A stretch of 43,602 nt of DNA from IMG/VR virus record IMGVR_UViG_3300025645_000141, positions 1 to 43,602 of that record; one strand, given 5' to 3'. This DNA comes from a virus. The translations under genes were made by a program, and so were the position numbers. The notes beneath the pieces were generated by a model that worked only from the letters and a program-made list of their open reading frames with translations, was not told where the DNA came from and ran no database searches. This document shows, piece after piece, positions 3,359 through 43,602 of the stretch (the first letter of the stretch is position 1; the number at the start of each line of letters is the position of its first letter).

Positions 3359-3563
3359 ATCTACCTCTGGCTAGTGCTATTTTTAATTTAGATTCAGCGA
3401 TTTTTATATTTTCATAAGTTTTTATCATTTCTACACGAGCGTTAATTATGTCAATTTTGTTTCCGATATAATTAGCATTAATAAAAGTATCTTCAGCATT
3501 AGCTCGTTCTTTTAAATAAGTCTGAAGATTAGCTTCTAGCATTTGCACCATAAGTGATTTCAT
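3336..3563 (-). CDS. Hypothetical helical protein
   Basis: 75 residues, almost entirely helix-forming with repeated Ala, Lys and Glu, so probably a short coiled coil. No domain recognised. AAGGA sits 8 bases before the ATG. It overlaps both neighbours (35 and 23 bases). Confidence 0.7.
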   Translation of the reverse strand: MKSLMVQMLEANLQTYLKERANAEDTFINANYIGNKIDIINARVEMIKTYENIKIAESKLKIALARGRYESNSAS

Positions 3564-5567: not shown

Positions 5568-6248
5568 TTAAATATCGTTCATATAAAACATTCGCACCAT
5601 AGAAGCGCAAAGCTCACTACGAACAATGTGATCAAGTCCAAATCTAATTACAGGGACATCTATATTTGATCTCTCGCACATCTTTAAAAAACGTGTTAAG
5701 TCAGTACCATGCTTTACATCAGATTGAGTTTCATCACCTACAAAAGCCATTGTTGTATCTTCGCCTACACGGGTTGTAAGAGCCTTAATTTCTTCAATAG
5801 ATAAGTTTTGAGCTTCATCAACAATTACAAATGCATTCTCAAATGATTGTCCACGAATGGTTTCAAGAGGCTGAACTAAAATTGACTTGCCAAATCGGCA
5901 TTCAAAGTCTTTAGCGCCAATAGCTCTTTTTAGAACGTTAGTAATTGGAGCTAACCAAGGAGCTAGTTTTTCTTCTACACTTCCGGGAAATGAGCCAAGA
6001 GTCTTACCTGTTGGAACATTAGGACGGGTTAGCACAATTGTATTAACATCACCACGAAGTAAGGCCTGAGCAGCTAGCATTCCAGCTATATAAGTTTTAC
6101 CTGTACCGGCACAACCGATTCCACAAACAAAAGGTTTTGATCGTAATGCATCTATAAACTCTTTTTGTAAATCGTTCTTTGGTACTACTGTATTGGCGGG
6201 TTTCTCTTCTCTTTCTTTGATGAATTTTACCTTTTGCGCTCTTTTCAT
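5568..6248 (-). CDS. phoH: PhoH family ATPase
   Basis: 226 residues. Walker A GIGCAGTGKT at residues 43-52 and Walker B/DEAQ (VIVDEAQN, 141-148) are followed by the family's VGDETQSD motif, giving an almost complete PhoH core (superfamily 1 helicase-like NTPase). PhoH proteins are widespread in marine phages and their role is unsettled (RNA metabolism or phosphate stress have been proposed). It is the first gene after promoter-like repeat 6351-6373, with a hairpin leader in between. There is no strong Shine-Dalgarno box before the ATG, which is unusual in this window. Confidence 0.93.
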   Translation of the reverse strand: MKRAQKVKFIKEREEKPANTVVPKNDLQKEFIDALRSKPFVCGIGCAGTGKTYIAGMLAAQALLRGDVNTIVLTRPNVPTGKTLGSFPGSVEEKLAPWLAPITNVLKRAIGAKDFECRFGKSILVQPLETIRGQSFENAFVIVDEAQNLSIEEIKALTTRVGEDTTMAFVGDETQSDVKHGTDLTRFLKMCERSNIDVPVIRFGLDHIVRSELCASMVRMFYMNDI

Positions 6249-9835: not shown

Positions 9836-9966
9836 TTCTTTATTCCTTTATAACATCCAATACCAAATAAAAACCCTAGAAAAAACAAAGGTCCCATCGA
9901 AAATAATACTACACCAAGTATAGCATACATTGTACAACTTGCTATTATATTTAATAACTTAAACAT
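9829..9966 (-). CDS. Small membrane protein (45 aa)
   Basis: 45 codons coupled on both sides: the start shares TAATG with the MoxR stop, and the stop overlaps the thioredoxin start. It is almost wholly hydrophobic (MYAILGVVLFSMGPLFFLGFLFGIGCY, about residues 13-39), with a basic C-terminus. Probably a membrane peptide; function unknown. Confidence 0.65.
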   Translation of the reverse strand: MFKLLNIIASCTMYAILGVVLFSMGPLFFLGFLFGIGCYKGIKKC

Positions 9967-10991
9967 TACAATAACAGCTCCTTACCCTCAACCATTACCC
10001 ATCCAATGATATCTTTGTTTTTCTTAAGTTCAGGCTTACGCTTCAAGCAATCACGAATTAAGAATGCAGCAAACTCTCTCTGTGGGAATCTACGAATGTA
10101 GGTTACTAGAGCATTAGCGTTACTTTCAGTAGTGTGATGCGCAAGCATAGAGCACAAGGCATACAGAACGTCAGGCTTGGTAGGAATAATAGTATCAGTA
10201 GGGTTAGCAAAGATATCCGCAGAACGAGGAAGGTCACGGTAAACACGGAGGTAACCAACAAAGTCAGCTAATGCTGCTTCACCGATTTGGCCTTTCAATG
10301 CTTGTGCTTCTAGTTGATTAGGTAGCTTCAATTTTAAGATAGTATCAGCTCTTTCCCATGAACGAGGGCTAGGTGATGCATCTTGGCTTGGATCAAACTT
10401 TTGCAGAAACTCAGGACGGTCTTGAATAAAGCCTGTTACTTCAGGAGTGAAACCATTAGCAAGACCATAGTTACGGAAGCCTTCGTGGTCAGTCTCGATA
10501 TGAAGATGAGTCAAGCGGTCTTTCAGGTGTGACGGCATAGGGTTAGTACCTGCGCGAGAGGACATGGGGTTGCCTGCGCATACTATTGTAACGTTATCAG
10601 GAAGCTGATGCTCACCAATACGGCGCTCGTTAACTAACTGAGCGATAATGTTCTGATTAGCTGTTGGAGCCTGTGGCAATTCATCAATAAACAAAATTGT
10701 AGGCTTGTCAGTAGTAGGAAGGAAGAAGGGACGGGCACGGTAATAAGTGTCAGTTTCTTTGTTAACAATAGGGAAACCGCCTAATTCACCGGCATCAAAC
10801 TGTGCAGGAACTAAGGTTACAATCTCGTACTTAAGCTCTTTGGCTAAGTCTTCAATGGCAGTAGTTTTACCTTCACCGGGCAAAGACCAAAGCATTGGAA
10901 CAAGATACTTAGAGTTGGAAGAACCAACCTCTAGAGCTAGGTTATGCTTGACGAAAGATTCAACGATTGCTTTAGTGTCTGATAATTTCAT
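9966..10991 (-). CDS. MoxR family AAA+ ATPase
   Basis: 341 residues. Walker A SLPGEGKTT (36-44), the ELGG motif, Walker B ILFIDELPQAP (D103, E104), a sensor region CAGNPMSSRAG and an arginine in LKDRL identify a MoxR-type AAA+ ATPase. These act as chaperones that remodel protein complexes, usually with a VWA partner, which is encoded two genes downstream. AAAGGT lies 8 bases before the ATG. The mRNA leader carries a hammerhead ribozyme that should cut about 51 bases before the start codon. Confidence 0.9.
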   Translation of the reverse strand: MKLSDTKAIVESFVKHNLALEVGSSNSKYLVPMLWSLPGEGKTTAIEDLAKELKYEIVTLVPAQFDAGELGGFPIVNKETDTYYRARPFFLPTTDKPTILFIDELPQAPTANQNIIAQLVNERRIGEHQLPDNVTIVCAGNPMSSRAGTNPMPSHLKDRLTHLHIETDHEGFRNYGLANGFTPEVTGFIQDRPEFLQKFDPSQDASPSPRSWERADTILKLKLPNQLEAQALKGQIGEAALADFVGYLRVYRDLPRSADIFANPTDTIIPTKPDVLYALCSMLAHHTTESNANALVTYIRRFPQREFAAFLIRDCLKRKPELKKNKDIIGWVMVEGKELLL

Positions 10992-11037
10992 AGTTTCTTA
11001 CCTTTTAAATTAAGAGTTATATGGGCCAGATTTGACT

Positions 11038-11092
11038 CCACAGACTACCCCGGAAGGTAGTTTCGTCCGTATCACAGGACTCATCAGTGTGG
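11038..11092 (-). ncRNA. Hammerhead ribozyme, type I
   Basis: Read on the minus strand, all invariant parts are present and in order. Stem I CCACA (11092-11088) pairs with UGUGG (11042-11038). Core CUGAUGA is at 11087-11081. Stem II is GUCC (11080-11077) with GGAC (11068-11065). Core GAAA is at 11064-11061. Stem III is CUACC (11060-11056) with GGUAG (11049-11045). UC at 11044-11043 sets the cleavage point between 11043 and 11042. Stem I is the open helix, hence type I. It sits between a terminator and the MoxR start. Known family: self-cleaving RNA giving 2',3'-cyclic phosphate and 5'-OH ends. Confidence 0.93.
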
Positions 11093-11107: not shown

Positions 11108-11134
11108 AAAAAACCCCCATCCGAAGACAGGGGT
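11108..11134 (-). terminator. Intrinsic terminator
   Basis: Minus-strand 9-bp stem ACCCCTGTC / GATGGGGGT around a stable TTCG tetraloop, followed by T6. It lies 8 bases after the 66-aa gene and 16 bases before the hammerhead ribozyme, so only read-through transcripts, or transcripts from a start in between, contain the ribozyme. Confidence 0.88.
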
Positions 11135-11142
11135 TGTGTGTA

Positions 11143-11343
11143 TCACTTGCGCTGTTTGACAGGTTTCACAAGACTGCGCCAGCTCTCTAAAAACCGACCA
11201 CCTTGTTCTACACCTGTAAGTAGTAATTTACGAAAACCTTCGGGACCAATAACACCTCGAACGGATTCAGATTGAACCACGAATGTTTCTCGTGGGCTGT
11301 TAACTTTAGAAAACTTAAGCTTATATGTAAATAACTGATTCAT
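11143..11343 (-). CDS. Hypothetical basic protein
   Basis: 66 residues, basic (pattern KLKFSKVNSPRETFVVQSESVRG, then RSLVKPVKQRK), with no recognised domain. It follows the ribonucleotide reductase gene by 21 bases and ends just before a terminator, closing that transcription unit. Confidence 0.7.
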   Translation of the reverse strand: MNQLFTYKLKFSKVNSPRETFVVQSESVRGVIGPEGFRKLLLTGVEQGGRFLESWRSLVKPVKQRK

Positions 11344-11364: not shown

Positions 11365-13224
11365 TTAAATCTCGCAAACACCGGCGGTGCAGGATAGTTG
11401 TTGATCAGCAGTTGTATTGTCTTCTTTCTCATAGTTAATTAATTTAGAGAAGTCAGGATTAACCGCTTTAGGTAAGTCAGTTGAAGTTTCGTATGGAGTC
11501 ATTTTATAAGTACCTGAGTCATATGGCAAAAAGCTTAAACCGCCTACAATCTCAAAGTTCTTAAAGACCCAATCACCTACACCTCTCCATTCATCTTCAT
11601 GGATACTAACTGTAACACTAGGGTTATGGTCTGTGTAATGCACCTTATAAGTCTTCCAGATTTCTAAAAATTCGATTGCAGACAAATCATCACGAGTAAG
11701 AGATTCTGGGCGTTCAATTCCGAATTCAAAGACGTGAGCATTTGGGTTGTAAAAGTCTGTATCACCTTGTACTCCTTCATCAATCAATAGTTGAGTTAAT
11801 GGGTCTTTCTTATCGTTACGTACTCTACGAATATAAGACTTAGCATGGGCAGGATGAATACCACTTGACACTCCACATAATTGACTAACTGTACCAGAGG
11901 GTTTAACAGTAGTAACCGCAGCTGAAGGGTTAACATCTAGGATTTTAGCATATTTAGCATTGGTAGAATTAGCAATATTACGTAATTCAATTAATCGACT
12001 TTCAAGGTTTTTGCTTTTACCATTAGTAAGCTTATTATCCATAATACCTGTCATAGAAACGCCAAGTAGTCTCTCTTCTTTGGTATTGTCTATCCACTTC
12101 TGTCTTAAACCTTTTAAGTTATCGAATGTAGATTGGATAGTACCAATGGTAGCAGCAATTTCAATTTTCTCTTTAAGTGTAGACATAGTATCTTCTGGTC
12201 GAATAATTACTTCACTTAGATTGCAAAATTGTCCGTCTCGAAGAAGGATCTCTCCACAGGGGTTCGTTCCCATCACGGATGGATCCCGTCCTATCTCTAG
12301 GCACTTTTTCTTTGCGCTGTCTAGATTGAAAATACCACGTTCCCCGCTGCCTGATGCCTTTATTGCTTCCCATTCTTTTGCCCACTCTTCTTCAGTTGGT
12401 TTACCATAATAGACTGCACTGTTGTTAGCTAGTGCAAACTCACCATTTTCAATCCACCACTCTCCTGCTTTAGCTTTAGCCATTTCATCATCAGAAAGAT
12501 CTGATAAGCTAATCAAAGCAGAACGCCTAACGCCGCCTACTACTACAACTTCAGCAATCTTACATACAATAGAATGAGCTTCTACTGTAGTAATTTGTCG
12601 GCCTCTTGCTCCACCAATAATCTTAACAAGATGCTGATGTAACTCCATTAAAGGCTTAGGGCCACTAGCTCGGCCACCAAATGTTTTTAATCGAGCACCT
12701 TCTGGTCGAATAGCACTGTAGTCAAAGTATACTTCATAACCCATGCTAATGAGATCGCAAGCAACAGCTACACTGTCTCTCCAGCCTTCTTTGCTGTCAG
12801 CTATTTTGTAATGAACTTTCTTACCGTTAAATTGCAAAACTTTAGGAAGTTTATTAATAGACTCATCTTTAACAGAGAAACCTAAACCTGTACCATGCAT
12901 GAGAACATACAGGGCTTCAGGAAAAGCATCATAGCTGTCAATGTCCAAAAATGAACAGTTGTAAGCAGCAATGTGATTATTGTCTAATGCAGGACCAGCC
13001 GCCATCATCACCCGCATAGATGGTACAACGTCTCGGTTTAAGATAGCATTCTCAATCTTTTCCCAAGGTACTTCTACATTGTTGTTTACTTGTTTTTTAA
13101 AAGCGTTTATAACTCGTGTTACTGTTTCAGGCCAGATTTCTCTGCGACCTTCTTTTTCGCGCCAACGAGAATATCTACTTAAATAAATAAAATTTTCGTA
13201 AGCTGTAAATGGGCGGTATGTCAT
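11365..13224 (-). CDS. nrdJ: B12-dependent ribonucleoside-triphosphate reductase
   Basis: 619 residues, shorter than the roughly 740-residue Lactobacillus-type monomeric class II enzyme but with all key parts: Cys90 in NCSF, the HGTGLGFSV loop, the thiyl-radical region GTNPCGE (Asn321, Cys323, Glu325), and the C-terminal pair Cys612-x4-Cys617 (CTAGVCEI) that is re-reduced by thioredoxin. It makes dNTPs from NTPs with adenosylcobalamin as radical source and without oxygen. It lies between dCMP deaminase and the MoxR/thioredoxin block. No cobalamin riboswitch is seen upstream. Confidence 0.93.
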   Translation of the reverse strand: MTYRPFTAYENFIYLSRYSRWREKEGRREIWPETVTRVINAFKKQVNNNVEVPWEKIENAILNRDVVPSMRVMMAAGPALDNNHIAAYNCSFLDIDSYDAFPEALYVLMHGTGLGFSVKDESINKLPKVLQFNGKKVHYKIADSKEGWRDSVAVACDLISMGYEVYFDYSAIRPEGARLKTFGGRASGPKPLMELHQHLVKIIGGARGRQITTVEAHSIVCKIAEVVVVGGVRRSALISLSDLSDDEMAKAKAGEWWIENGEFALANNSAVYYGKPTEEEWAKEWEAIKASGSGERGIFNLDSAKKKCLEIGRDPSVMGTNPCGEILLRDGQFCNLSEVIIRPEDTMSTLKEKIEIAATIGTIQSTFDNLKGLRQKWIDNTKEERLLGVSMTGIMDNKLTNGKSKNLESRLIELRNIANSTNAKYAKILDVNPSAAVTTVKPSGTVSQLCGVSSGIHPAHAKSYIRRVRNDKKDPLTQLLIDEGVQGDTDFYNPNAHVFEFGIERPESLTRDDLSAIEFLEIWKTYKVHYTDHNPSVTVSIHEDEWRGVGDWVFKNFEIVGGLSFLPYDSGTYKMTPYETSTDLPKAVNPDFSKLINYEKEDNTTADQQLSCTAGVCEI

Positions 13225-26176: not shown

Positions 26177-26199
26177 TTCTTCTTTATAAGGCGGTATCT
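26177..26199 (-). promoter_or_regulatory. Phage RNAP promoter-like repeat, copy 3
   Basis: A perfect 20-base core copy (TACCGCCTTATAAAGAAGAA), preceded by AGA. It overlaps the stop codon of the RNA polymerase gene and points to the SSB and replication genes. The predicted start is G at 26182. Confidence 0.72.
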
Positions 26200-28526
26200 T
26201 AACAAAATGCGAAATCAGATTCCATTATTGCATTAAGATCTAAGTTACCTTTTGCTGGTAAAAGCTCTAAAGCATTTACTTGAGTTAAAACTTGTTCAAG
26301 CGGTTTACTACTATAAAAGCCTACAAAAGTTTCTCTAACAATCTTAAACATGTTTCCCATATCTCCTATATGACAACCGAAGCTGTCGTGAATTACTGTA
26401 ACAGGGAAGTCACAAGCTACTATAGTAGATGTTAAATGAGCCGCATCAAAAGAATGAACTAAGTTAGGAGCTGCACCTGTTTTTTGCGCTCGCTTTTCTA
26501 GCTTTCTTCTTTCATACGGACGTATTGTAAGCCTTAAAGTTTTAGGAGGATTATACAGCGATCTAGATTCTCCTCTACCTTTATATTTAGCTCTGCTTGT
26601 ACCTTCACCGCAAAAACTAACTTCAAGCTGAACTTCTTTAGTAGCCTCATAAGCTTGGACTACCGGAAATCCAGTTATAGGTACATTCCACTTTAAGAAT
26701 ACACCTTCATCATTAGCTCTTTCAGCTAGTGTCCTAAACAAGTCAAGCATTGCTGCTGGTCCTTTCATGTTAGAAAGTGTGGTATCCATTAGCAAGTCGC
26801 CAAAGGGGTTGACCCATCCTTTCTCTTTAAATTTAAGCTCTTCAGATAAAGTGCGAGTATCATCAAATACCTGCTCTCTTACACCCATTTTAGTAACACC
26901 GTAACCTAAAGTCATAACAGGTCTTTTTACGGTCTTTCTTTGGAGCTTTTTGTCATTTGCTAATCGCATCCAAAATGGAACAAACATTCCTTTAGTTTCT
27001 TCACGATTATCTTTACGCCACTGATCAAGTTCTGCAAATACAGCGTTTTTGTCTTCTTTAGTTACAGTTTTTTCCATCTTAAGTTTAATAGTTGTTACTT
27101 CTTTAATAAACCTATCAGCATTAGCTTTTAATTCAGGTGAAATTTGTTCATACGCTTTTGCTAGTGCTTCCCAAGTTTTTTCCGCAACAAACATGTAAAC
27201 ATCTCCGGGAACTTTAGTAGGCACAAGGTTAACGAGATGAGCAACAGTATCATCTAAACTTAAAGCGGTTAAATGCTGTACACCGTTGTTAGAGCCATCA
27301 ATAAACAAAGGTAAAGAACTTTCGTACTCCTCTATATTACCTCCGTAATTAAGCCGAAGATTTATTTTGTACCATTCAAAACAACAAGCTAAGAATGACC
27401 ATGACTTATCCGCTTTAGTCCATCCATTATTATTATAAGGGTCGCTAGCGTAAGCACATATGTCATCCATGTTATCTTGAACCCACTGAGCCCTATCATC
27501 TAATGTTAACTTGTCTTCACCCCAGCAATTAGCTGTATGCACACTAAGCCAATAGGCACCTTCTTCCCCTAATGGTTTTTTATGGTCATACAGAATTAAG
27601 CCTTTAGCGTTATCAGAAGACTGCTCATGCAAGTAAGAAGAACCGGGGTATATACGGCCTCTAAAGTCACAATTGTATCTGTGATAAAAGGTTTTATTTA
27701 GAAAGCCTTCTGCAATTGCAAGAATAGCATCAGCCTCTAAGAACATACCTTCTCTGCTTGGTTTTCTTTCTTCTTTTTGATGTTTAAAAGGAGAATCTTT
27801 GTCTATAATAAAATCACGAGAGAATACAGTTTCTCTATCTTGTTGTTTTAAAAGAGTTTTATAAACAGAAAATACTTCATGGTTTATAACATAACCTGTG
27901 TTTTGTAATTTATTTAGAGCAGTAAGTACTATCGGGCAATTGTCCTTATTAACTTGCTTTAGAGCTTCCGCATTACCTCTACGAATTAGTGTATGACCAT
28001 CTACATGATAACCAGTTTCCCAATCAGGAGACGGAGTAGATCGAGGACTTTCTTCTAAAGCAGCTACATCCAAAGTAGCCCATAGCTCATCAAATAACGG
28101 CTCATTTAATAAATTAAGATGATAAGTAGAGTGTTCAGTTCTACTAGTACTTTTTCCTCTTTGGTGCATTTTTTCTACACTTAATAGTTTAAAGTTAACA
28201 GAAGGTTTGTCCTTATTGCAATAAGCTTCCATTATTTTTAAACCAAAGTACAAGGCAATTTTAGTTTCATTTAAAGGATCTTCATCTACACCTATATTTC
28301 TTCGAACTTTACTACCAAGTCCTATTGCTGTTTCTGTTAACATTGATCTACTTCTTAACGCCATTAGCACTGAACCAAGAGTCATTTCAACAATTTTATC
28401 TATGGTTTCATCCCAGTCCATCCCTTTATCTTCAAGATGTTTTGGAAACCATTTGTTGGTATTTCTCCCGTCCTTCGTGTCTAACAGGCGTACTGCCATG
28501 CTATGTCTTAGGCGTTCTTTCGGCAT
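26199..28526 (-). CDS. T7-like single-subunit RNA polymerase
   Basis: 775 residues. Catalytic motifs match T7 RNAP: CDFRGRIYPGSS, FIDGSNNGVQHL (Asp410), KRPVMTLGYG (Lys534, Tyr542), and VIHDSFG (Asp714). The chain ends in DFAFC, like the conserved FAFA foot. The catalytic Asp is at 410 versus 537 in T7, so the N-terminal domain (promoter and upstream contacts, RNA exit) is about 125 residues shorter. It should transcribe phage genes, probably from the four repeated elements in this window. AGGAG lies 7 bases before the ATG. The leader contains an attenuator-like structure. Confidence 0.97.
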   Translation of the reverse strand: MPKERLRHSMAVRLLDTKDGRNTNKWFPKHLEDKGMDWDETIDKIVEMTLGSVLMALRSRSMLTETAIGLGSKVRRNIGVDEDPLNETKIALYFGLKIMEAYCNKDKPSVNFKLLSVEKMHQRGKSTSRTEHSTYHLNLLNEPLFDELWATLDVAALEESPRSTPSPDWETGYHVDGHTLIRRGNAEALKQVNKDNCPIVLTALNKLQNTGYVINHEVFSVYKTLLKQQDRETVFSRDFIIDKDSPFKHQKEERKPSREGMFLEADAILAIAEGFLNKTFYHRYNCDFRGRIYPGSSYLHEQSSDNAKGLILYDHKKPLGEEGAYWLSVHTANCWGEDKLTLDDRAQWVQDNMDDICAYASDPYNNNGWTKADKSWSFLACCFEWYKINLRLNYGGNIEEYESSLPLFIDGSNNGVQHLTALSLDDTVAHLVNLVPTKVPGDVYMFVAEKTWEALAKAYEQISPELKANADRFIKEVTTIKLKMEKTVTKEDKNAVFAELDQWRKDNREETKGMFVPFWMRLANDKKLQRKTVKRPVMTLGYGVTKMGVREQVFDDTRTLSEELKFKEKGWVNPFGDLLMDTTLSNMKGPAAMLDLFRTLAERANDEGVFLKWNVPITGFPVVQAYEATKEVQLEVSFCGEGTSRAKYKGRGESRSLYNPPKTLRLTIRPYERRKLEKRAQKTGAAPNLVHSFDAAHLTSTIVACDFPVTVIHDSFGCHIGDMGNMFKIVRETFVGFYSSKPLEQVLTQVNALELLPAKGNLDLNAIMESDFAFC

Positions 28527-30193: not shown

Positions 30194-30496
30194 TTAGTTT
30201 AATAAATAAACAATAATACTACCAACAATAAGAAGTGATACAGATATGATTAAAAAACCTCTTTCAAGCGCTCTAAAGTCAACCTGCTTACTTAACGCTT
30301 TATATGATTTAGCCCAGACTACAGCGGGGATTACAGAAGACATTGCGCCTGCTATAAAAGTACCTGCATTATTAAATTCGCCATCTAGTGCTAACCAGAG
30401 CGCTAACCCTTCTAAAAAGAATACAGACAAAGCAATTAATGTTGCTATTGCAATAATTTTAAAGAAAGTTTTTAAGTTAGAAACAAAATTTGTCAT
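30194..30496 (-). CDS. Membrane protein with three TM segments
   Basis: 100 residues, three predicted spans (about 12-37, 42-63, 80-99) with a short basic loop (KSYKALSKQ) between the second and third. The size and topology would suit a holin or antiholin, but it lies apart from the lysozyme gene and the assignment is open. There is no strong ribosome binding site. The mRNA leader begins with the type II hammerhead, whose cut would leave about 62 bases before the ATG. Confidence 0.72.
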   Translation of the reverse strand: MTNFVSNLKTFFKIIAIATLIALSVFFLEGLALWLALDGEFNNAGTFIAGAMSSVIPAVVWAKSYKALSKQVDFRALERGFLIISVSLLIVGSIIVYLLN

Positions 30497-30526
30497 TTTA
30501 ATATACCATATTTAGTTTAAGAATCT

Positions 30527-30581
30527 GTCTCATCAGCACATGTAGATTAGTTCATGTGGACGCCCAAAAGAGCGTTTCGAC
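30527..30581 (-). ncRNA. Hammerhead ribozyme, type II
   Basis: On the minus strand the circularly permuted order of a type II hammerhead is complete. Stem II 3' strand GUC is at 30581-30579. Core GAAA is at 30578-30575. Stem III is CGCUC (30574-30570) with GGGCG (30565-30561), loop UUUU. UC at 30560-30559 sets the cleavage point before 30558. Stem I is CACAUG (30558-30553) with CAUGUG (30542-30537), closed by a 10-base loop. Core CUGAUGA is at 30536-30530, and stem II 5' strand GAC at 30529-30527. The open stem II has only 3 bp. The ribozyme starts immediately after the stop codon of the 98-aa gene. Confidence 0.88.
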
Positions 30582-30878
30582 TTATGCTACAATTGTAACT
30601 TCTTCAATCATGTTGCCTAACTCAAGATTCATTTGAGACGTAGGGACAACATACTCAATGTGATTAAGCTCAGTAGTCTCGCCTAAAGCTACGCCACGAT
30701 AAGTATTAAGGTCACGGTCTAAAACAAGTTTAACAACAACACGACCGTCTAACTGATAACCCTTTGCAACCTCTAAGCTGTCTGCCCAGTAAGAAACACG
30801 AAGGTTAGTATTAACTTTATCAGTGGCAATTAAATTGTCAGCTTCTAATTTACTCATAGCGCGATAATAAATATACAT
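30582..30878 (-). CDS. Hypothetical protein
   Basis: 98 residues. MYIYYRAMSKLEADNLI, then SYWADSLEVAKGYQLDGRVVVKLVLD and LNHIEYVVPTSQM, recalls the layout of small ADP-ribosyltransferase-like folds (RxxS, then a strand-rich core), but I cannot confirm this. AAAGGAG precedes the ATG. Its stop codon abuts the type II hammerhead, so its mRNA would be trimmed about 23 bases after the stop. Confidence 0.75.
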   Translation of the reverse strand: MYIYYRAMSKLEADNLIATDKVNTNLRVSYWADSLEVAKGYQLDGRVVVKLVLDRDLNTYRGVALGETTELNHIEYVVPTSQMNLELGNMIEEVTIVA

Positions 30879-35562: not shown

Positions 35563-38500
35563 TTAATGCTCCTTCTGAGCTAGTTGTGTTTTAAGGTTAT
35601 CAACCTCGGTTTTTAATTCTTTGATTGCTTCTACTAACAAACCAATTGTTGCGTTGTAATCAACTCGCTTAATCACATCGTCATCAACTGCTTCTGGCAG
35701 TACTTTTTCAATGTCTTGTGCTATTAAACCAGCGTATCGTTTAGTTTTATCGCTTAAATCTATGCGGTTAAAAGTTACACCATTAAGCTGTTGAACTTTG
35801 TTCAAGGCGTTGGTTATCGGCTCAATGTTTTCTTTAACTCTGCGATCAGAATATGCTGTGATATTACCACCAGCTATAATTGACCCCGCAACATTAACAC
35901 TTGTTCCTGTGGAGTTAGGGTCTAAATAATAAGCAGTGTTATCTGCGTCGTAGAAGATTGAACTAGTGCGACCAATTTGAACATTAGACTGAGTTGATGA
36001 TACGGCAAGAAAACTGGTTACGAGATTAACATCCCAGCCATCATCCCAGTTGGCTACAGTTGAAGCACTGTGACCCGCAAAAAACTCCGTCACTGCTACT
36101 TTCAAATAACTCCAAGAGTCGCTCGGCTCACCTATATAGATACAGCATTTTGTGCCGTCATGCCCAAAACGAATGTTAAAGTTACGGTGGATGCGAGGTG
36201 AGCCAAGAATATAAGCAAAGGTGTTTATCCAAGTCGCGCCGGAGTAGTTATACCCCCCACAATGGACATCAAACGACTCGTTATTCGCGTAATCATATAC
36301 TTTGATGACCATCGACATCATCGTGTTTGTCCAAGACTGAGGCAAGGTCACCTTAATCGCGCCAACTTCTGTGCCATTGCCGTTTCTTGCCGCGCCGTTG
36401 GGAGCGAATATCTTAACAGTGCTGTTTTGCTCCTGACCGAAAGCGTTGGCGTTTACAACATTAAGCCTTGAGGTAGTGCTGGGGTCTGAGTAAAAACCAG
36501 TGTTATCGGAGTCGTAGAAGACCGGAGCGCGGAAAGACCCAATTGATTGCGTGTAGTTACTCTTATGCACTTGTAAAACAGCGCCTAGCGTTCCTACGCC
36601 GTAATGCGGGTTCGCCTGATTATCGTACCAACCAAAGTCGAGGGTTGACGCATTATTGTTACCTGTACCAATTCCGAAACGCCTGAACCCTGAATCAGTC
36701 TCACTCACAAAACTCAAAGTAGGACCGTGGTTAGGGTTACCGTTACCACCAGTCATAGTGGAGTCGATTACCATCGACGGGTATTGCCCGCCCCTGAGCT
36801 GGAACTGAGGTCTGTTAGCGTCATCAGTATCGCTTCGGAAGCCAGTACTTCCCACTACCATCTTATCTACTACTGTTACCTTGTCGAAAGTAGCGTGACC
36901 CGTGTTGCTGACAGACGCGACGTTGCCCGTTCCCGCTCTAAATATCCAACCTCGGTTAGCCTGCGTGTCCATAGTAAAGTAGGTAGCCCAATTACCCGTG
37001 ACGACGTTATGCGTTCCAGATCCCGCAGTGCCAGTAAACATAATTCCAAACGTAGGGTCTACTGATGCCGTGCCACCGCCACCGCCGTATAGCGATATGC
37101 CTCTTTTCGTACTGGATGAAGTATTATTAATACCAATACCTACCGCGCTGACCCGTAGCAAATTACTGTCGCTAGCAGGGTCTACATAATAGTCAGTGTC
37201 GCTGGAGTCGTAGAAGATGGGGGCGCGATAGGAGCCTGTTGCAGTGACGTTACTCGACCTATCAATCAATAGAGCGGTTGTTCCCCAGCCACTGTTTCTA
37301 TGCCCGTGATCCATCTTGATTCGGAAGTTGTCATCTGTTAAGCCGTATCCAACACTCCATGTATTGCTATTAAATGCAGAAGAAAACAGGATTGAGGGGC
37401 GATCAGTTCCAACAGCATTAGCAACTCTAAACTCCGAAACAATGCCCCAAGAATTATTGCCATGCGCGTTTTGGAACAGACTTCCAACGGCATTGCCGCC
37501 CTCTGTTTTTGTAACGGTTAGAGTTGGACTTGCAGAGCCATTATTGTCAAGAATAGATGACCCATGAGGATTTACATAGAAATTAGTATTATCTGAATCA
37601 TAAAAGATCGGGGCGCGATAGGAGCCAGTATGCAGAGAGTATCCGCTATACTTTGATTCCTGCTCCGTTCCTCCGTGGAAGTTTGCAAGCCTGTCTGGAT
37701 AGCTCACAAAACTATGTCTAGGCGCACCAGATGTAGACCCAGCAGCAGCACCAAACGCAATCGTTGATACGCCTTGTGACGTATCATAAAGTCGAATGTT
37801 CTCGTTCCAGCTTCCTGTGCTTGCGCCGTTATTTATCCAGATAGATGGATTAGAGATAGTGCCAATATTAGCGAGGTTGCGGCTTGAGTCTATTACTGTG
37901 GTGCTGCCAACTTGAAAAGCTCCTGCGGCGGTAAAGCCGAACGTATCTGAGCTAGAGCCATTAGTCCTAATATAAACGCCTCTACCTGTTGCAGCGGCAA
38001 GAAATAACCCGTCACCGTTGTCATCTCTACCAAACACTCGGTTGTAACCATTGGTTATGCCGCCAAAGCCAATAACCCCGTAGCCCCCGTATGTTCCATC
38101 TTCACCTACTTGAGTTCCTGTCTTGGCAAATATTTGACGGCTTGAGTCTATTACTGTGGTGCCGCCAAGCTGCAAAGCTCCGGTGTTTATGTTGACATCG
38201 CCAACATTTGTTATCCTCATACGCTCTGGCGAGCTATTATTAGAGGAGGTGTGAAACCTCAAGTCAGCCTGATTAGCGTAACCTCCGCCACTTTCTATCC
38301 TTGCGTGATTTATATATTGCCCAGTTGTGGTATCCCCAAACGTTAGCTGACCATAAACCATATCAACGGCATTATTGGCGTGCTGCTTAACTAGGTGGAT
38401 ATCATGCCCACCACTTAACACAACATCTCCTCCGAAGTTAGATACACCAGCAGGGTCTACATAATAAACAGTGTTATTAGAATCACGGAAAAGTGGTGCG

Positions 38501-41500
38501 TCTGAAGAAACTCTGGCGTGTGATCTGCCATCGGGCGTAACCCAAAAGTTTCTATCTCCTCTACCGTTAACGGTTCCATTGTCGGCGGTAGTAGCCCACA
38601 CCTCGAAAATACCGCCAGTTTTAACGAACCTAGCGTACACCCCGTAGCCGTGATTTACGGCTCTTCCATAGTATGGCGAGTTAGTCGCAATGTTTACGCC
38701 GATGCCGCCGCCGTCATGTGTAACTCCGGGTTCGGACAAAAACATAACCATGTTGCTTTTGTAGATGTCATTGCCGTTATAGTCGTAATTTAGGACAATG
38801 TTGTCGCTAGAATGGCTGCTTTTAATGGTAATCCCACCACCTAAATTAGACGCGGCAGAAGGGTCTACATAGTAACCAGTATCATTGGAGTCGTAGAATA
38901 TTGGGGCGCGGAATGAGCCGGTAACAATACAAGCTGCATTACTATCTAAATAAAACAGCTCGTTAGTAGTGTTACTTGTAGTGTTATCATAAATTCTAAA
39001 AAAGGAAGTAGCATTATTACTGTTGCTGTCAAGCCTTATAGTAACGTCATTATAACTATTGATAGACATACTATCGGCATACGCGCCTGCGGAATTTGTA
39101 GACGTAATGCCTTGATTTTGTGGGTTATCCCAGCCAGCTGTCTCATAAGCAAACGAAATAGACTTTACGCTATGCCCAGTCATGGCATTAGCGCCAGCGT
39201 TACGCCAGCCCTGCTCTGATGTACCGAAGTCCATTCTATTTACGATAGAGGTACCAGAAGGGTCTACATAGTAAGCAGTGTTGTTGTAATCCTTAAAGAT
39301 AGGCGCATGCATTTCCCCGAAAGCGTATACAACTTTCGTCTGTCCGTTTATTCCTAAAGAGTCGTATGACCCGCCGAAACCACCCCCTACAGAATCATGG
39401 GGATTTGAAAAATTTCCATCTCTCCAGCCAAAACGAAGTAGGTGCGAACCACCCCAGTTGCCTTGATTAATTACAAACTTTCTATAATCCGCTGAGTTGG
39501 CTGGGTTTGAAGTAGTAAATGAAATCGTACTTCCGTGGTTAGCATTTGTCTGCTGAGACGCGATAACTACATCGCTATAGTACGAAGACAGTACTACCTG
39601 CGACCGTCCGTTAGCACCGCTTGTCGCCTCTAAACCAGTAAATGTTCTATTGGTGTTTAGCGTTATGCGACCCGCAGCAGAGACAGTGCCGATGTTAGTC
39701 AGGTTACGGCTAGAGTCTATTACTGTGGTGGAGCCTATCTGAAAGTTACCAGATATAACGTCAGTGTCATTATCAACTCGTAGCTTTTCTGTAAAGGTGC
39801 CGCCTTCACCAGACCATGAACTACCATGACCAAACCGAAGGTATCCATTCACCCCCATAATCATTGCAGGCTTGTTAGTGCCGCCAGAGTCTTGGTTGCC
39901 CATCATTAATACTTGGGCTGTCCCTGACTCTGTAATTTTTAACGCCCCGCCTACCTGCGCGTTACCGCTCGCTGTAATAGTGCCGATGTTAGTCAGGTTA
40001 CGGCTAGAGTCTATTACTGTGGTGCCGTTAATTCGGTATCCACCAATCGGGACATTTACGCCATACCCAACAGTACTGCTATCTCCAATCTGGAATTGGT
40101 CAGCAAGCGCATCCGCGTTTGTGGGCTTAGTTTGGAATCTAATATAGCCAGACGCTCCGCCACTACCACGATAGAATGTCATGTTTGCGACTTCAACACC
40201 GTTATATCCTGAAACTTTAGATACCCCAATGTTTGATAAATCCTGCCTGTTGTTCCACAGCTTTAGCTCACTAACAGCATTCTGTGTTTTGAACATATTG
40301 ATGAGACCGTAACCCTCACCAAGCTGTAACTGTGTACCTGTCGGGCTTGCCTCCATAGCACGATATGAAGTGCCGCCATAGATTCTATCGTTTGAGTTTA
40401 AGTAGATGCTGTCAAAAGCCGCAGTTGTACCTGTCAAATCACCGGTCAAATTACCGCCAGACAGGGGCAGCTTGCTCGCTATGTTTGAGTTAACCGTAGT
40501 AGCAAAGTTCGGGTCATCGCCTAACGCAGCAGCAAGCTCATTCAGTGTGTCTAGCGCAGCAGGGGAGGAGTCAACAAGGTTGCTTATCGCTGTGCCAACA
40601 TACGTCTCAGTGGCGTAGCCGCTTAAAGAAGGTATTGTTGGAGTGCCGGTTAAATTTGCATATGCTCGATAGTAAGAGCCATGTTGCCCATCGAGAAGAT
40701 CAGCGTCTAATCCGGAAGCCGAACCATGATTACCGTCATTCCAAATTTTGTGGTTTGCAAAGTATGAGTGTTCTTTTGCTTCGGCGAAAGTCGTAATATT
40801 AGAAACAACAGGACTTGAATAAACTACTGAAGTTGCTCCACCACTTGTTGGAAGAGTATTTACATTAAAGCCAGCGCTATAAAAGTCTGCGGCTACAGTA
40901 AAGTTCATGTAATAAGAAGCTTCAGCGTAGACGTCTACATAATAAGTATTTTGACCAGAGTTGTCCCATCCAGCATCTACAGGCGTTCCAAGTACAAGTC
41001 TAAATCTACTATGCTCTGAAGAGCCTCCGGCATCTTTAAGGCGAAGCTGGAACATCGTGTTCTGGTTTCCACCATTATAGTCGCCACATATTTCATATTT
41101 TAAGTTTGTAGCTTCATAGGTTTCTGACCAAACTTTAAGATGAATATCTTGCCAACTGCTATCCCAATGACCTGGGCTCGCATACAATCTCATAATTACA
41201 AAACGTCTTGCCTGCACTCCGAAAGCTGAAATATTAGTCCAACGATAATGCGAGTGCGCAGGATTCAGGTCTGCTTTTTGGTATCCATCAAGTAAATCTG
41301 CATCTAAGCCAGAACCGGAACCGTTAACAGTTTTAATTTTAGTCAATATTTGAGCAGCTGTATCTGGCGAACCCTGAGCACCTTGGGCACCAATAACTCC
41401 TTGAGCGCCTGTAGAGCCTTGAGAACCAGTAACGCCTTGAGCGCCTGTAGAGCCTTGTAAGCCAATAGCTCCTTGAGCGCCTGTAGAGCCTTGAGAACCA

Positions 41501-42645
41501 GTAGCGCCTTGAGCGCCTGTAGAGCCTTGTAAGCCGATAGACCCTTGTAAGCCGATAGACCCTTGAGCGCCTGTAGAACCTTGTAAGCCGATAGACCCTT
41601 GAGCTCCTGTAGAACCTTGTAAGCCAATAGCCCCTTGAGCGCCTGTAGCGCCTTGAGAACCAGTAGCGCCTTGAGAACCAGTAGCGCCTTGAGCGCCTGT
41701 AGAACCTTGTAAGCCAATAGCCCCTTGAGCGCCTGTAGAACCTTGTAAGCCAATAGCTCCTTGGGCACCTACAGCGCCTTGGGCACCTACAGCGCCTTGA
41801 GCACCTTGAGCACCTACAGCGCCTTGAGCACCTTGAGCACCTTGAGCACCAATATTTCCCTGAGGACCTACGATACCTTGGGGGCCTACGATACCTTGGG
41901 GGCCTACGATACCTTGGGGGCCTACGATACCTTGCAAACCGATAGGGCCTTGTAATGCTACACTAGCAATAGTTCCCTTTTCCCATCGACCTGCTGATAC
42001 ATCATAATATGGAACTAAATCGGAGCTTGCAGCATCAGTACCTGCAGGAAACGCAGTCAAAGCAGATCCAGCATTTGTCAAGTAACCAGCAGAAGCATGG
42101 TTACCCCAGCCGTAAGCTGTGTTCCAGTTAGCTACACTTGAGGTAGGAAGGTTTCCATAATGCCAGACTTCGTTACCTGTGCCTATTAAGTCAGCGCTCG
42201 TTCCTACACGTAGCGTACCAGCACTTGCTCCTTGACCAACATACGTAGTGCCTGAAGCGCTTGAGTATTTTATATTTATATTTGTTCCAGAAGACCTTGT
42301 TATCTGTATTGGCGTGGCACTTGCGTGATTTGCAAGTAGATTACCAGTCAGCGTACCGCCAGCAAGGGGCAGTTTAGTGGCGATAATATTTGTAACAGTT
42401 GTAGCAAAGTTAGGGTCATCGCCTAACGCTGCTGCTAACTCGTTAAGGGTGTCTAACGTAGCAGGAGCAGAATTAGCAAGATTACTAATTTGTGTTCCAA
42501 CATATGACTGCGTAGCGTAGTTAGCACTAGCATGACTTCCCCAGTTATAAGCAGTATTCCAATTTGCAGAAGTGCCATCACTGGATGTTATAGTGCCTCC
42601 TACATCTAGGCCGTTCTTTATTCTAAAATTATGGGTGTCTGCCAT
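35563..42645 (-). CDS. Giant tail fibre with collagen-like and S74 domains
   Basis: 2360 residues. Order: beta-rich N-terminus with the module NWNTAYNWGSHAS and LDTLNELAAALGDDPNFATTV; collagen-like Gly-x-y repeats (about 233-426); a second LNELAAALGDD module (about 700); a long body with seven copies of FRAPIFYDSNNTGYYVDP-type repeats and four of GSTTVIDSSRNLTNIGT; and a C-terminal peptidase S74 intramolecular chaperone starting YSDRRVKENI (Ser2266 as candidate self-cleavage residue) with coiled-coil tail. Such fibres bind the host surface, and the chaperone trims itself off after trimer folding. A sigma70 promoter and GAGGAG precede it. Confidence 0.94.
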   Translation of the reverse strand: MADTHNFRIKNGLDVGGTITSSDGTSANWNTAYNWGSHASANYATQSYVGTQISNLANSAPATLDTLNELAAALGDDPNFATTVTNIIATKLPLAGGTLTGNLLANHASATPIQITRSSGTNINIKYSSASGTTYVGQGASAGTLRVGTSADLIGTGNEVWHYGNLPTSSVANWNTAYGWGNHASAGYLTNAGSALTAFPAGTDAASSDLVPYYDVSAGRWEKGTIASVALQGPIGLQGIVGPQGIVGPQGIVGPQGIVGPQGNIGAQGAQGAQGAVGAQGAQGAVGAQGAVGAQGAIGLQGSTGAQGAIGLQGSTGAQGATGSQGATGSQGATGAQGAIGLQGSTGAQGSIGLQGSTGAQGSIGLQGSIGLQGSTGAQGATGSQGSTGAQGAIGLQGSTGAQGVTGSQGSTGAQGVIGAQGAQGSPDTAAQILTKIKTVNGSGSGLDADLLDGYQKADLNPAHSHYRWTNISAFGVQARRFVIMRLYASPGHWDSSWQDIHLKVWSETYEATNLKYEICGDYNGGNQNTMFQLRLKDAGGSSEHSRFRLVLGTPVDAGWDNSGQNTYYVDVYAEASYYMNFTVAADFYSAGFNVNTLPTSGGATSVVYSSPVVSNITTFAEAKEHSYFANHKIWNDGNHGSASGLDADLLDGQHGSYYRAYANLTGTPTIPSLSGYATETYVGTAISNLVDSSPAALDTLNELAAALGDDPNFATTVNSNIASKLPLSGGNLTGDLTGTTAAFDSIYLNSNDRIYGGTSYRAMEASPTGTQLQLGEGYGLINMFKTQNAVSELKLWNNRQDLSNIGVSKVSGYNGVEVANMTFYRGSGGASGYIRFQTKPTNADALADQFQIGDSSTVGYGVNVPIGGYRINGTTVIDSSRNLTNIGTITASGNAQVGGALKITESGTAQVLMMGNQDSGGTNKPAMIMGVNGYLRFGHGSSWSGEGGTFTEKLRVDNDTDVISGNFQIGSTTVIDSSRNLTNIGTVSAAGRITLNTNRTFTGLEATSGANGRSQVVLSSYYSDVVIASQQTNANHGSTISFTTSNPANSADYRKFVINQGNWGGSHLLRFGWRDGNFSNPHDSVGGGFGGSYDSLGINGQTKVVYAFGEMHAPIFKDYNNTAYYVDPSGTSIVNRMDFGTSEQGWRNAGANAMTGHSVKSISFAYETAGWDNPQNQGITSTNSAGAYADSMSINSYNDVTIRLDSNSNNATSFFRIYDNTTSNTTNELFYLDSNAACIVTGSFRAPIFYDSNDTGYYVDPSAASNLGGGITIKSSHSSDNIVLNYDYNGNDIYKSNMVMFLSEPGVTHDGGGIGVNIATNSPYYGRAVNHGYGVYARFVKTGGIFEVWATTADNGTVNGRGDRNFWVTPDGRSHARVSSDAPLFRDSNNTVYYVDPAGVSNFGGDVVLSGGHDIHLVKQHANNAVDMVYGQLTFGDTTTGQYINHARIESGGGYANQADLRFHTSSNNSSPERMRITNVGDVNINTGALQLGGTTVIDSSRQIFAKTGTQVGEDGTYGGYGVIGFGGITNGYNRVFGRDDNGDGLFLAAATGRGVYIRTNGSSSDTFGFTAAGAFQVGSTTVIDSSRNLANIGTISNPSIWINNGASTGSWNENIRLYDTSQGVSTIAFGAAAGSTSGAPRHSFVSYPDRLANFHGGTEQESKYSGYSLHTGSYRAPIFYDSDNTNFYVNPHGSSILDNNGSASPTLTVTKTEGGNAVGSLFQNAHGNNSWGIVSEFRVANAVGTDRPSILFSSAFNSNTWSVGYGLTDDNFRIKMDHGHRNSGWGTTALLIDRSSNVTATGSYRAPIFYDSSDTDYYVDPASDSNLLRVSAVGIGINNTSSSTKRGISLYGGGGGTASVDPTFGIMFTGTAGSGTHNVVTGNWATYFTMDTQANRGWIFRAGTGNVASVSNTGHATFDKVTVVDKMVVGSTGFRSDTDDANRPQFQLRGGQYPSMVIDSTMTGGNGNPNHGPTLSFVSETDSGFRRFGIGTGNNNASTLDFGWYDNQANPHYGVGTLGAVLQVHKSNYTQSIGSFRAPVFYDSDNTGFYSDPSTTSRLNVVNANAFGQEQNSTVKIFAPNGAARNGNGTEVGAIKVTLPQSWTNTMMSMVIKVYDYANNESFDVHCGGYNYSGATWINTFAYILGSPRIHRNFNIRFGHDGTKCCIYIGEPSDSWSYLKVAVTEFFAGHSASTVANWDDGWDVNLVTSFLAVSSTQSNVQIGRTSSIFYDADNTAYYLDPNSTGTSVNVAGSIIAGGNITAYSDRRVKENIEPITNALNKVQQLNGVTFNRIDLSDKTKRYAGLIAQDIEKVLPEAVDDDVIKRVDYNATIGLLVEAIKELKTEVDNLKTQLAQKEH
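41368..41949 (-). repeat. Collagen-like repeat DNA in fibre gene
   Basis: About 65 Gly-x-y triplets, mostly GAQ, GLQ, GST and GPQ, encoded by 9- and 18-base tandem DNA units (plus-strand words CCTTGAGCGCCTGTAGA and CCTTGTAAGCC). Trimeric collagen-like rods are common in phage fibres. The near-identical DNA units invite length change by recombination. Confidence 0.93.
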
Positions 42646-42704: not shown

Positions 42705-42733
42705 AGTATAAGAAATTTAGACTATTTTGTCAA
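42705..42733 (-). promoter_or_regulatory. Sigma70 promoter before tail fibre
   Basis: On the minus strand TTGACA (42733-42728), a 17-base spacer and TATACT (42710-42705), almost a perfect host consensus. The start is expected near 42698. The leader holds a GCCCC/GGGGC hairpin before the GAGGAG ribosome binding site of the fibre gene. A host-type promoter for a late structural gene is unexpected for a phage with its own RNAP. The -35 box overlaps the arm of the hairpin at 42731-42754. Confidence 0.8.
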
Positions 42734-42754
42734 GGTTTATTTTTTAAAACCTTG
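42731..42754 (-). terminator. Hairpin after upstream fibre gene
   Basis: Perfect 8-bp stem CAAGGTTT / AAACCTTG with an 8-base A/T loop, 4 bases after the stop codon of the rightmost gene. The following bases are not a pure T-run, so termination may be partial. Its 3' arm runs into the -35 box of the fibre promoter. Confidence 0.6.
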
Positions 42755-42758
42755 TAGA

Positions 42759-43602
42759 TTACACCGTTATACTATGTCTAATTACCTTAAAGGACATCGC
42801 ATCGGTAGAGGTCGGTGTTGCAAGTATACGTACATTTCCTGAATTTATATCTGCTGTAAAAACTGCTTCAACTGCTGCTCCTGTGTAAATAGTACCAAAT
42901 TCACTGGTTGATGGAGTAGTTCCATTGTGTATAAGCAATATTTCAGTAAGATGATAAGTATTATCTGTACTGTTTGTAACTTGAATGGTATATCGTGCGC
43001 TTCTAAAGTTTGCTGCAATCATAGAATCAATTGATACCTGAGTAGTTGCAGCGGTAGAGGTTGTTGTAGTATCAATACCTAACTCTTTTACTTGAAGCTT
43101 AGCTTTTGGCGAATCATTACCGATACCTAAGTTACCGCTAGTATCAATTCTAACTGCTTCATTTGTTCCTATGTTAAACCTGTGCTCTGACGCAATAACG
43201 TTATTGATTAAATAAGCTGAACCGCTGCGATTGTAATGCTGCGTGGTGTTGCCGCCAGTAATATTAGCAGGGAAGAACTCTATTCCTTCAGCACCATTAT
43301 TAGAAACTGTTAGCTTGCCAATAGATGAGGTTGTGCCTATGCTCAAATTACCATTAGCGAACAAGCGCATGGCTTCTGTGCTGCCGTTAACAACCATTCT
43401 CATAATTGCTGAGGCAGTTAAGTCTAATACCGTAGAACCTCCTGAAGCATTACTACCAATACTACCTACGGATGTGCCGTCTTTGCGGAAGTCTGCAATA
43501 GTGCCGTCGGAAGTCTTGCGGTTTAAAAGCAATGCTCTAGTTCCGTCAGACGTATGAGCCGCATAATCTCCTTGCCCGTCTGACAAGAACTGATGTCCAA
43601 CT
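42759..43602 (-). CDS. Virion fibre-like protein (5' part missing)
   Basis: At least 280 residues, open at the window edge; the frame continues through the TTG at 43586 without a stop (VGHQFLSDG...). Repetitive beta-rich sequence (DGTRALLLNRKTSDGTIADFR; NLSIGTTSSIGKL; NLGIGNDSPKAKLQV) leads to a C-terminal globular module (ARYTIQVTNSTDNTYHLTEILLIHN ... RILATPTSTDAM) that I know from cyanophage structural proteins. No S74 domain is present. Probably a second fibre or tail protein. Confidence 0.82.
   Translation of the reverse strand, partial: VGHQFLSDGQGDYAAHTSDGTRALLLNRKTSDGTIADFRKDGTSVGSIGSNASGGSTVLDLTASAIMRMVVNGSTEAMRLFANGNLSIGTTSSIGKLTVSNNGAEGIEFFPANITGGNTTQHYNRSGSAYLINNVIASEHRFNIGTNEAVRIDTSGNLGIGNDSPKAKLQVKELGIDTTTTSTAATTQVSIDSMIAANFRSARYTIQVTNSTDNTYHLTEILLIHNGTTPSTSEFGTIYTGAAVEAVFTADINSGNVRILATPTSTDAMSFKVIRHSITV

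Follow-up and report, generated by a model that had tools for sequence, protein, structure and literature searches.

Comparative sequence analysis confirms that the sequence between two operons of the phage genome studied here encodes a genuine type I hammerhead ribozyme. The analysed stretch, called the window throughout, comprises the 43,602 nucleotides of IMG/VR virus record IMGVR_UViG_3300025645_000141, and the ribozyme (11038–11092, minus strand) is probably active and used as an RNA-processing site. The original prediction, that a MoxR leader contains an entire type I hammerhead, is borne out by the catalytic core, a covariance model, compensatory change of stem III in a relative and a chance control, all of which agree. 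Type I hammerheads in phage leaders are of a kind already known and described in 2011 (Perreault et al, 2011; PMC3088659); what appears to be unreported is a second ribozyme in the genome, the repeated use of hammerheads before MoxR and a product hairpin that covaries in relatives.

The hammerhead in the MoxR leader

Along the minus strand, the locus runs from RNR through a 66-aa ORF, a terminator, the ribozyme, MoxR, thioredoxin, a DUF2201 metallopeptidase/VWA protein and products of 322 aa and 94 aa to ClpP. The ribozyme is intergenic and on the coding strand, between the 66-aa ORF and MoxR, in keeping with the placement criterion of Perreault et al (2011). The features of the locus are:

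11365–13224, minus strand: RNR, upstream of the 66-aa ORF
11143–11343, minus strand: 66-aa ORF, upstream of the terminator (ORF call; homologous ORF in relative L004)
11108–11135, minus strand: intrinsic terminator closed by a UUCG loop, 3′ of the 66-aa ORF and 5′ of the ribozyme (sequence)
11038–11092, minus strand: type I hammerhead, whole (core and stems read; covariance model R1, 45.2 bits, E=2.7e-12)
11088–11092, minus strand: stem I 5′ strand CCACA, open end (pairs with 11042–11038; same in L004)
11081–11087, minus strand: catalytic core CUGAUGA (sequence)
11065–11080, minus strand: stem II GUCC/GGAC with loop UGUGAUAC (excised fold)
11074–11071, minus strand: candidate pseudoknot strand UGAU in loop II (loop II–tail complementarity, class with stem I of at most 5 bp)
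11062–11064, minus strand: catalytic core GAA; the next A (11061) is A15.1 of stem III (sequence)
11044–11061, minus strand: stem III ACUACCU-UCCG-GGGUAGU, 7 bp including A15.1-U16.1 (fold; rewritten in L004)
11042–11043, minus strand: predicted cleavage site, C17 (11043)/U1.1 (11042) (hammerhead numbering)
11038–11042, minus strand: stem I 3′ strand UGUGG, predicted new 5′ end of the MoxR mRNA after cleavage (fold)
11033–11036, minus strand: tail GUCA, candidate pseudoknot partner of loop II UGAU (complementarity)
11020–11042, minus strand: predicted 5′ hairpin of the cleaved MoxR mRNA, UGUGG.GUCA/UGGC.CCAUA (MFE −9.4 kcal/mol, z −1.3)
11001–11006, minus strand: Shine–Dalgarno-like AAAAGG of MoxR (sequence)
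9966–10991, minus strand: MoxR-family AAA+ ATPase, the first gene 3′ of the ribozyme (phrog_1297, E=1.3e-75; Pfam AAA)

Read from the window, the minus strand from 11092 to 11038 is CCACA-CUGAUGA-GUCC(UGUGAUAC)GGAC-GAA-ACUACCU(UCCG)GGGUAGU-C/UGUGG, with the slash at the predicted cut. The invariant core is present in full (CUGAUGA, GAAA, A15.1-U16.1 and GUC, with H17 not G), and the topology is that of type I, stem I being open and stems II and III closed by loops. Helices of 5, 4 and 5 bp had been claimed; stems I and II are as stated, and stem III has 7 bp rather than 5 because A15.1-U16.1 and the U-G closing the UCCG loop pair too. When 71 nt are excised and folded with RNAfold, the MFE and the centroid structure are both exactly the hammerhead fold, at an ordinary folding energy (z −0.31). 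Within a 162-nt leader context the MFE structure retains stem III and rearranges stems I and II into an alternative fold, which is a caution and no refutation because MFE programs leave the tertiary contacts that hold a hammerhead unscored.

That chance would hardly produce such a motif, as had been supposed, is what the random controls indicate. A strict type I descriptor (stems of at least 5/4/5 bp) matched nowhere in 60 Mb of Markov sequence that reproduced the dinucleotide content of the window. When the three topologies were counted together, at minimum stem lengths of 5/3/6, eight matches turned up in 758 Mb of random sequence, or about 0.0009 per window over both strands; by an equally strict descriptor about 0.001 are thus expected per window. 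The bare core pattern was discarded as a statistical test, since it is uninformative (23 matches, 14.8 expected).

The absence of a significant hit to any hammerhead model had been named as grounds for giving up the prediction. Instead, covariance model R1, built on 24 hammerheads taken from other phages and genomes with the window, L004 and Pseudomonas phage BroderSalsa left out, reports exactly one site in the window, 11092–11038, at 45.2 bits (the E value is roughly calibrated, the bit score being unaffected by this). The BroderSalsa ribozyme scores 53.9 bits with a covariance model built without it. In reference set A4, 97.5% of the cells are paired, but its rows were chosen for pairing. 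The proposed check against the Rfam hammerhead I model came out less favourably: RF00163 (Hammerhead_1) yields only 20.3 bits against a gathering threshold of 34, and the whole window has zero Rfam matches at gathering thresholds. The same thresholds recover 0/38 of the hammerheads, all intact in core and stems, that were detected by the descriptor in 13 loci; because all 38 are missed too, the RF00163 threshold is no defining feature of the structural class, and curated Rfam models as a rule miss phage hammerheads of this class. In a permissive regional search, the RAGATH-1 hammerhead (RF03152), which shares its core with the window ribozyme, reached 22.4 bits against a threshold of 56.3. RAGATH-1, DUF2815 RNA and COG2908 RNA, all far under their thresholds, were rejected as identities of the region, and neither the gathering-threshold search of the window nor the permissive regional search found an Rfam riboswitch in the MoxR leader.

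Just upstream of the ribozyme stands the predicted TTCG-loop terminator, a hairpin AACCCCTGTC-TTCG-GATGGGGGTT (11135–11112) followed by a T-run; the distance to stem I is 15 nt and not 16. No sigma-70-like promoter was found in this 15-nt gap (the window also encodes an N4-like phage RNA polymerase). Because only these 15 nt, devoid of such a promoter, separate T-run and ribozyme, the suggestion that the ribozyme acts only on read-through RNA is reasonable. As for cleavage as the separator of the RNR and MoxR messages, the terminator already keeps them apart; the 66-aa ORF lying in between, which has no match in Pfam or PHROG, had gone unmentioned. The N4-like polymerase is encoded at 26199–28526, and its promoters matter for the set of RNAs that include the ribozyme. 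At 35563–42645 the window has its largest gene, which encodes a tail-fibre-like protein of 2360 aa.

Relatives of the locus and a second ribozyme

Relatives L002 and L004 were gathered by MoxR protein similarity and not by ribozyme. The MoxR of L002 is identical to that of the window; that of L004 is at 89% over the 108 residues available. The L004 ribozyme is CCACA CUGAUGA GUCC UGUGACAA GGAC GAA ACCGCUUC UUUC GAGGCGGU C UGUGG. Its stem I and stem II strands are those of the window, and stem III (ACCGCUUC-UUUC-GAGGCGGU) has gained one pair and lost none: two pairs are altered on both strands, and two on one strand in a way consistent with pairing. Loop II is altered from UGAU to UGAC facing the tail GUCA, and the pseudoknot pairing is retained; in the window UGAU/GUCA could form three Watson–Crick pairs and one G-U pair. 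Homologues whose helices break without compensation had been expected to speak against the ribozyme; in L004 stem III is compensated. All 54 nt before the ATG are identical between L004 and the window (54/54), compared with 84% identity of the MoxR coding sequence. L004 also has a small ORF (5711–5897) between terminator and ribozyme that ends at the ribozyme edge; none is there in the window.

Conservation also sets a limit on the earlier reading. The closest MoxR relatives, with 60–66% identity (among L132–L139), have a leader and no hammerhead, so MoxR expression does not in general depend on it. A small ORF is present in these relatives, and a terminator in several of them. The type I site of the window has no close relative except L002 and L004; BroderSalsa carries the same kind of type I ribozyme at 42713–42765 in unrelated surroundings. 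Two further probes were set aside: the leader DNA retrieved mostly Klebsiella phages from phage records, matching the terminator alone, and RNR yielded near-identical contigs only. A hairpin with a GCAAU loop, which may be a terminator or belong to phage promoters, recurs intergenically in MoxR relatives (L132 at 2885 and 2927, L133 at 2884, L139 at 2622, L144 at 2706 and 2950) and occurs at 30350 in the window.

An all-topology scan of the window returned just one strong site besides 11092–11038, which is of type II:

30527–30581, minus strand: type II hammerhead, predicted cut 30559/30558 (all-topology scan; stems I, II and III of 6, 3 and 6 bp)
30522–30526, minus strand: tail AGAUU, candidate pseudoknot with loop I AAUCU at 30548–30544 (sequence; kept in L413)

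From 30581 to 30527 the RNA is GUC GAA ACGCUC UUUU GGGCGU C CACAUG AACUAAUCUA CAUGUG CUGAUGA GAC, then AGAUU. It begins right after the stop codon of ORF 30582–30878, and the predicted cut lies 62 nt before ORF 30194–30496. With the Rfam type II model (Hammerhead_II, RF02276) it shares the topology and the loop I–tail pseudoknot AAUCU/AGAUU, and its score of 34.2 bits (E=1.2e-5 in 201 nt) is just below the curated gathering threshold of 37. In L413, a relative of the phage found via the upstream protein, stem I of the type II ribozyme has become UAUAGG/CCUAUA with compensation and the pseudoknot is unchanged. The genome thus holds more than one hammerhead, another criterion of Perreault et al (2011). 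Within 1.3 kb, L413 has three type II hammerheads, at 2295–2349 (the one with the rewritten stem I), 2763–2815 and 3491–3543.

Type I hammerheads across phages and before MoxR

In viral contigs from a pattern scan that yielded at least 120 stretches, the descriptor found at least 161 type I hammerheads in at least 108 loci, some loci having four to six copies. Six viral contigs (L062, L048, L109, L044, L110 and L078) each have 4–6 type I hammerheads spread through them. After removal of near-copies and addition of a second viral scan and a prokaryote genome scan, the final set comprised at least 186 type I hammerheads. We looked in this set at the loop II–tail pseudoknot and at a product hairpin, defined as complementarity of the stem I 3′ strand to the sequence following it, at the 5′ end of the cleaved product. 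In the class with stem I of at most 5 bp, to which the window belongs, loop II–tail complementarity is seen in 36 of 92 among the matches listed against 13.3 ± 3.0 after permutation (0/1000), and the product hairpin, again among the matches listed, in 29 of 92 against 14.1 ± 2.7 (0/1000). The longer stem I class has no excess of either among the matches listed (pseudoknot 8 vs 10.4, hairpin 18 vs 16.2). The hairpin excess is weak in each of the two new independent sets (6 vs 3.4 and 6 vs 3.7; pooled 12 vs 6.0, 1/1000) and vanishes in the whole set when G-U pairs are allowed and finer strata are used; a mirror control, with a hairpin of the 5′ strand and the head, gave no clear excess. The product-hairpin excess therefore belongs to the class with stem I of at most 5 bp and is clearest for Watson–Crick pairs. 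The loop II–tail pseudoknot has statistical support for the same class, and in the window it is a proposed pairing.

Position was the other property compared. A Shine–Dalgarno sequence plus start codon lies within 200 nt past the cleavage site in 118/145 viral type I hammerheads and within 60 nt in 99/145, among the matches listed; for random same-strand points the shares are 43% and 18%. The 51-nt spacing of the window is ordinary for viral type I hammerheads, and the original prediction of a 5′-OH end 51 nt upstream of the MoxR start agrees with the predicted cut between 11043 and 11042.

Covariance model and all-topology scan also revealed hammerheads in the MoxR leaders of other phages. 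Type I hammerheads, mostly with an extra U after CUGANGA, stand 37–44 nt before MoxR in 11 contigs (L196, L198, L199, L202, L207, L209, L414, L417, L419, L421 and L423), and type III hammerheads 65–71 nt before it in L152, L153, L154 and L167. A tree of 44 MoxR proteins sets the window apart from these phages, in another well-supported part, and requires eight changes of label, so that the MoxR-leader hammerhead has been gained, lost or replaced several times. Hammerheads are borne by 9/41 MoxR leaders and by 21/369 leaders of other genes (Fisher p=0.001), an enrichment that is suggestive only, because the sampling retained label-distinct near-copies and the test is rough. Other hammerheads in the contigs of MoxR phages also lie between genes, often abutting the upstream stop codon. 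In the clade of L196, L198, L202 and L414–L433, the extra U between CUGANGA and stem II is common, and stems and loops look as if swapped between copies as modules.

Among phages with a MoxR gene, 18 distinct type I hammerheads, located in MoxR leaders or about 0.8 kb upstream, can be aligned unambiguously and form family A6. Its three stems and pseudoknot covary, with 99.5% of cells paired and 12 pairs changed on both sides; the pseudoknot (columns 22–26 with 61–65) is 97.8% paired with both-sided changes in two pairs. In the product hairpin, which joins the 3′ strand of stem I to an arm 5 nt further on, 90/90 cells are paired and 3/5 pairs have changed on both sides, cell counts that overstate the number of events because the sequences are related. 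Both strands of stem I and the downstream arm thus vary in concert, as in the triplets (5′ strand, 3′ strand and arm) GCUAC/GUAGC/GCUAC, GCUGC/GCAGC/GCUGU, GCUAU/AUAGC/GCUAU and GCCAC/GUGGC/GCCAU, and the pseudoknot strand turns into the loop of the product hairpin. BroderSalsa has the same product-hairpin layout (CGGGA-AGUC-UCCCG). The layout in the window, UGUGG A GUCA AAUC UGGC CCAUA, is looser than that of the MoxR-phage family, with one G-U pair, a bulge and an ordinary z, and, because the L004 leader is identical, it is without independent covariation. At the level of sequence, comparison thus establishes the fold, its compensatory conservation and the typical leader position, and in the MoxR-phage family also the product hairpin. 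Roseobacter phage CRP-7 (L382, MK613349) has a type II hammerhead at 571–625, about 1.8 kb upstream of its MoxR gene.

Proposed mechanism, alternatives and meaning

For the window, we infer that the RNA cuts itself, that its own hairpin forms and that stability or translation of the mRNA is affected; cleavage and its chemistry would follow from the hammerhead class. A polymerase that passes the terminator, or that set out further upstream in a polycistronic unit, would transcribe the ribozyme, and stems I, II and III together with the loop II–tail pseudoknot would fold as the motif emerges. The RNA would then cut itself between 11043 and 11042, leaving an upstream RNA that ends in the stem II and stem III hairpins with a 2′,3′-cyclic phosphate and a MoxR-operon mRNA that starts with a 5′-OH at UGUGG. 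The freed UGUGG may pair with the downstream CCAUA instead of stem I, giving a 5′ hairpin that absorbs the pseudoknot strand, would render cleavage irreversible and would shield the new end. A 5′-OH end alone does not imply stability, because in Bacillus subtilis it is from this end that RNase J1 degrades the cleaved glmS mRNA (PMC3997798). On the other hand, 5′-terminal stem-loops can stabilise mRNA in Escherichia coli (according to references given in PMC3997798), so that a hairpin on a 5′-OH end is plausibly protective, depending on the nucleases of the host.

Compared with bacterial and phage type I hammerheads (PMC3088659; reviewed in PMC6155905), the window has the same core, three helices, a possible loop–tail pseudoknot and a site between genes. 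What differs is a new phage lineage and gene, the MoxR operon, a terminator directly upstream and the predicted product hairpin made from the freed stem I strand, of which we found no description in the literature searched. HHphage of haloviruses HF1/HF2 likewise stands in a phage gene leader, 13 nt before the start codon of a helicase; it has core insertions and was discussed in a high-salt setting, whereas the core in the window is canonical (PMC3088659). The natural elements look similar in function to the synthetic insulator RiboJ, a hammerhead with a 23-nt hairpin (PMC7536230) that shortens the leader and leaves a hairpin upstream of the ribosome-binding site. Such a hairpin at the new 5′ end is predicted in the window and covaries in the MoxR-phage family. 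RiboJ is engineered, however, and its hairpin was added separately; in the window one strand would serve as stem I and then in the predicted hairpin. No paper linking hammerheads with MoxR, and no description of a covarying product hairpin, came up in the literature searched, which leaves out most subscription journals.

Among the alternatives to a processing site that serves the MoxR operon, the one to be taken most seriously, although unlikely, is that the ribozyme is active but travels as a selfish or neutral passenger, spreading between intergenic sites of phages by recombination without a selected effect of cutting on MoxR expression. The patchy distribution, with closest MoxR relatives that have no hammerhead and a type I site shared only with L002 and L004, would fit a passenger, as would the many viral contigs with several copies (up to six) in varied intergenic places. 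Against a passenger, 54/54 leader bases are identical to L004 at 84% coding identity, stem III stays paired through change, the spacing to the start codon is consistent and MoxR leaders of separate clades carry different topologies, at 9/41 against 21/369 for other genes in a rough test with label-aware sampling. We consider it improbable that cleavage is a controlled switch in which the downstream-arm hairpin competes with stem I and ribosomes, a protein or a ligand decide on cutting. Product hairpin and stem I do use one strand and are mutually exclusive, and the long leader adopts an alternative MFE fold, but Rfam finds no riboswitch in the leader, and fast co-transcriptional cleavage should win because the competing arm is transcribed only after the complete ribozyme.

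That the motif is an inactive look-alike, arisen by chance or decayed, is very improbable. Its score is under the Rfam threshold and its folding energy ordinary, but only about 0.001 such motifs are expected per window, every invariant base is intact, L004 shows compensatory change, and the same Rfam threshold misses 38/38 descriptor hammerheads in 13 other loci. In eukaryotic repeats, type I hammerheads release circular RNA from retrozyme- or satellite-like elements, and this general role is what would favour such an element here. We regard it as the least probable reading of all, with hardly any weight, as the region has a single hammerhead, the second one of the window is 19 kb away, and circular or spliced products of clustered phage hammerheads were sought and none detected (PMC3088659).

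The function of phage hammerheads has been termed an open question (PMC6155905). The leader position of the viral type I hammerheads agrees with the proposal of Perreault et al (2011) that cutting divides long phage transcripts into mRNAs the length of an operon or a gene; in their experiments three prophage arrays cleaved in vitro and one did so in E. coli (PMC3088659). For annotation there is a practical gap, since such hammerheads are overlooked in phages, with Rfam curated thresholds reporting 0/38 in 13 loci. They are present in two sequenced named phages, Roseobacter phage CRP-7 and Pseudomonas phage BroderSalsa. From the relatives the question gains the form of a concrete claim, with differing topologies in the leader of the same gene and a predicted 5′ end, to which the covariation of product hairpin and stem I in one family adds. 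Tentatively, and with rather less confidence than we place in the processing site itself, we suggest that many short-stem-I phage type I hammerheads are strand-exchange devices, in which the cut is followed by a pseudoknot strand and then a repeat of the stem I 5′ strand, so that the new mRNA end would refold into a capping hairpin, and that phages have time and again placed hammerheads, and not of a single topology, before MoxR to fix the 5′ end and lifetime of the operon mRNA. If this strand-exchange reading is true, these ribozymes would be a natural counterpart of RiboJ.
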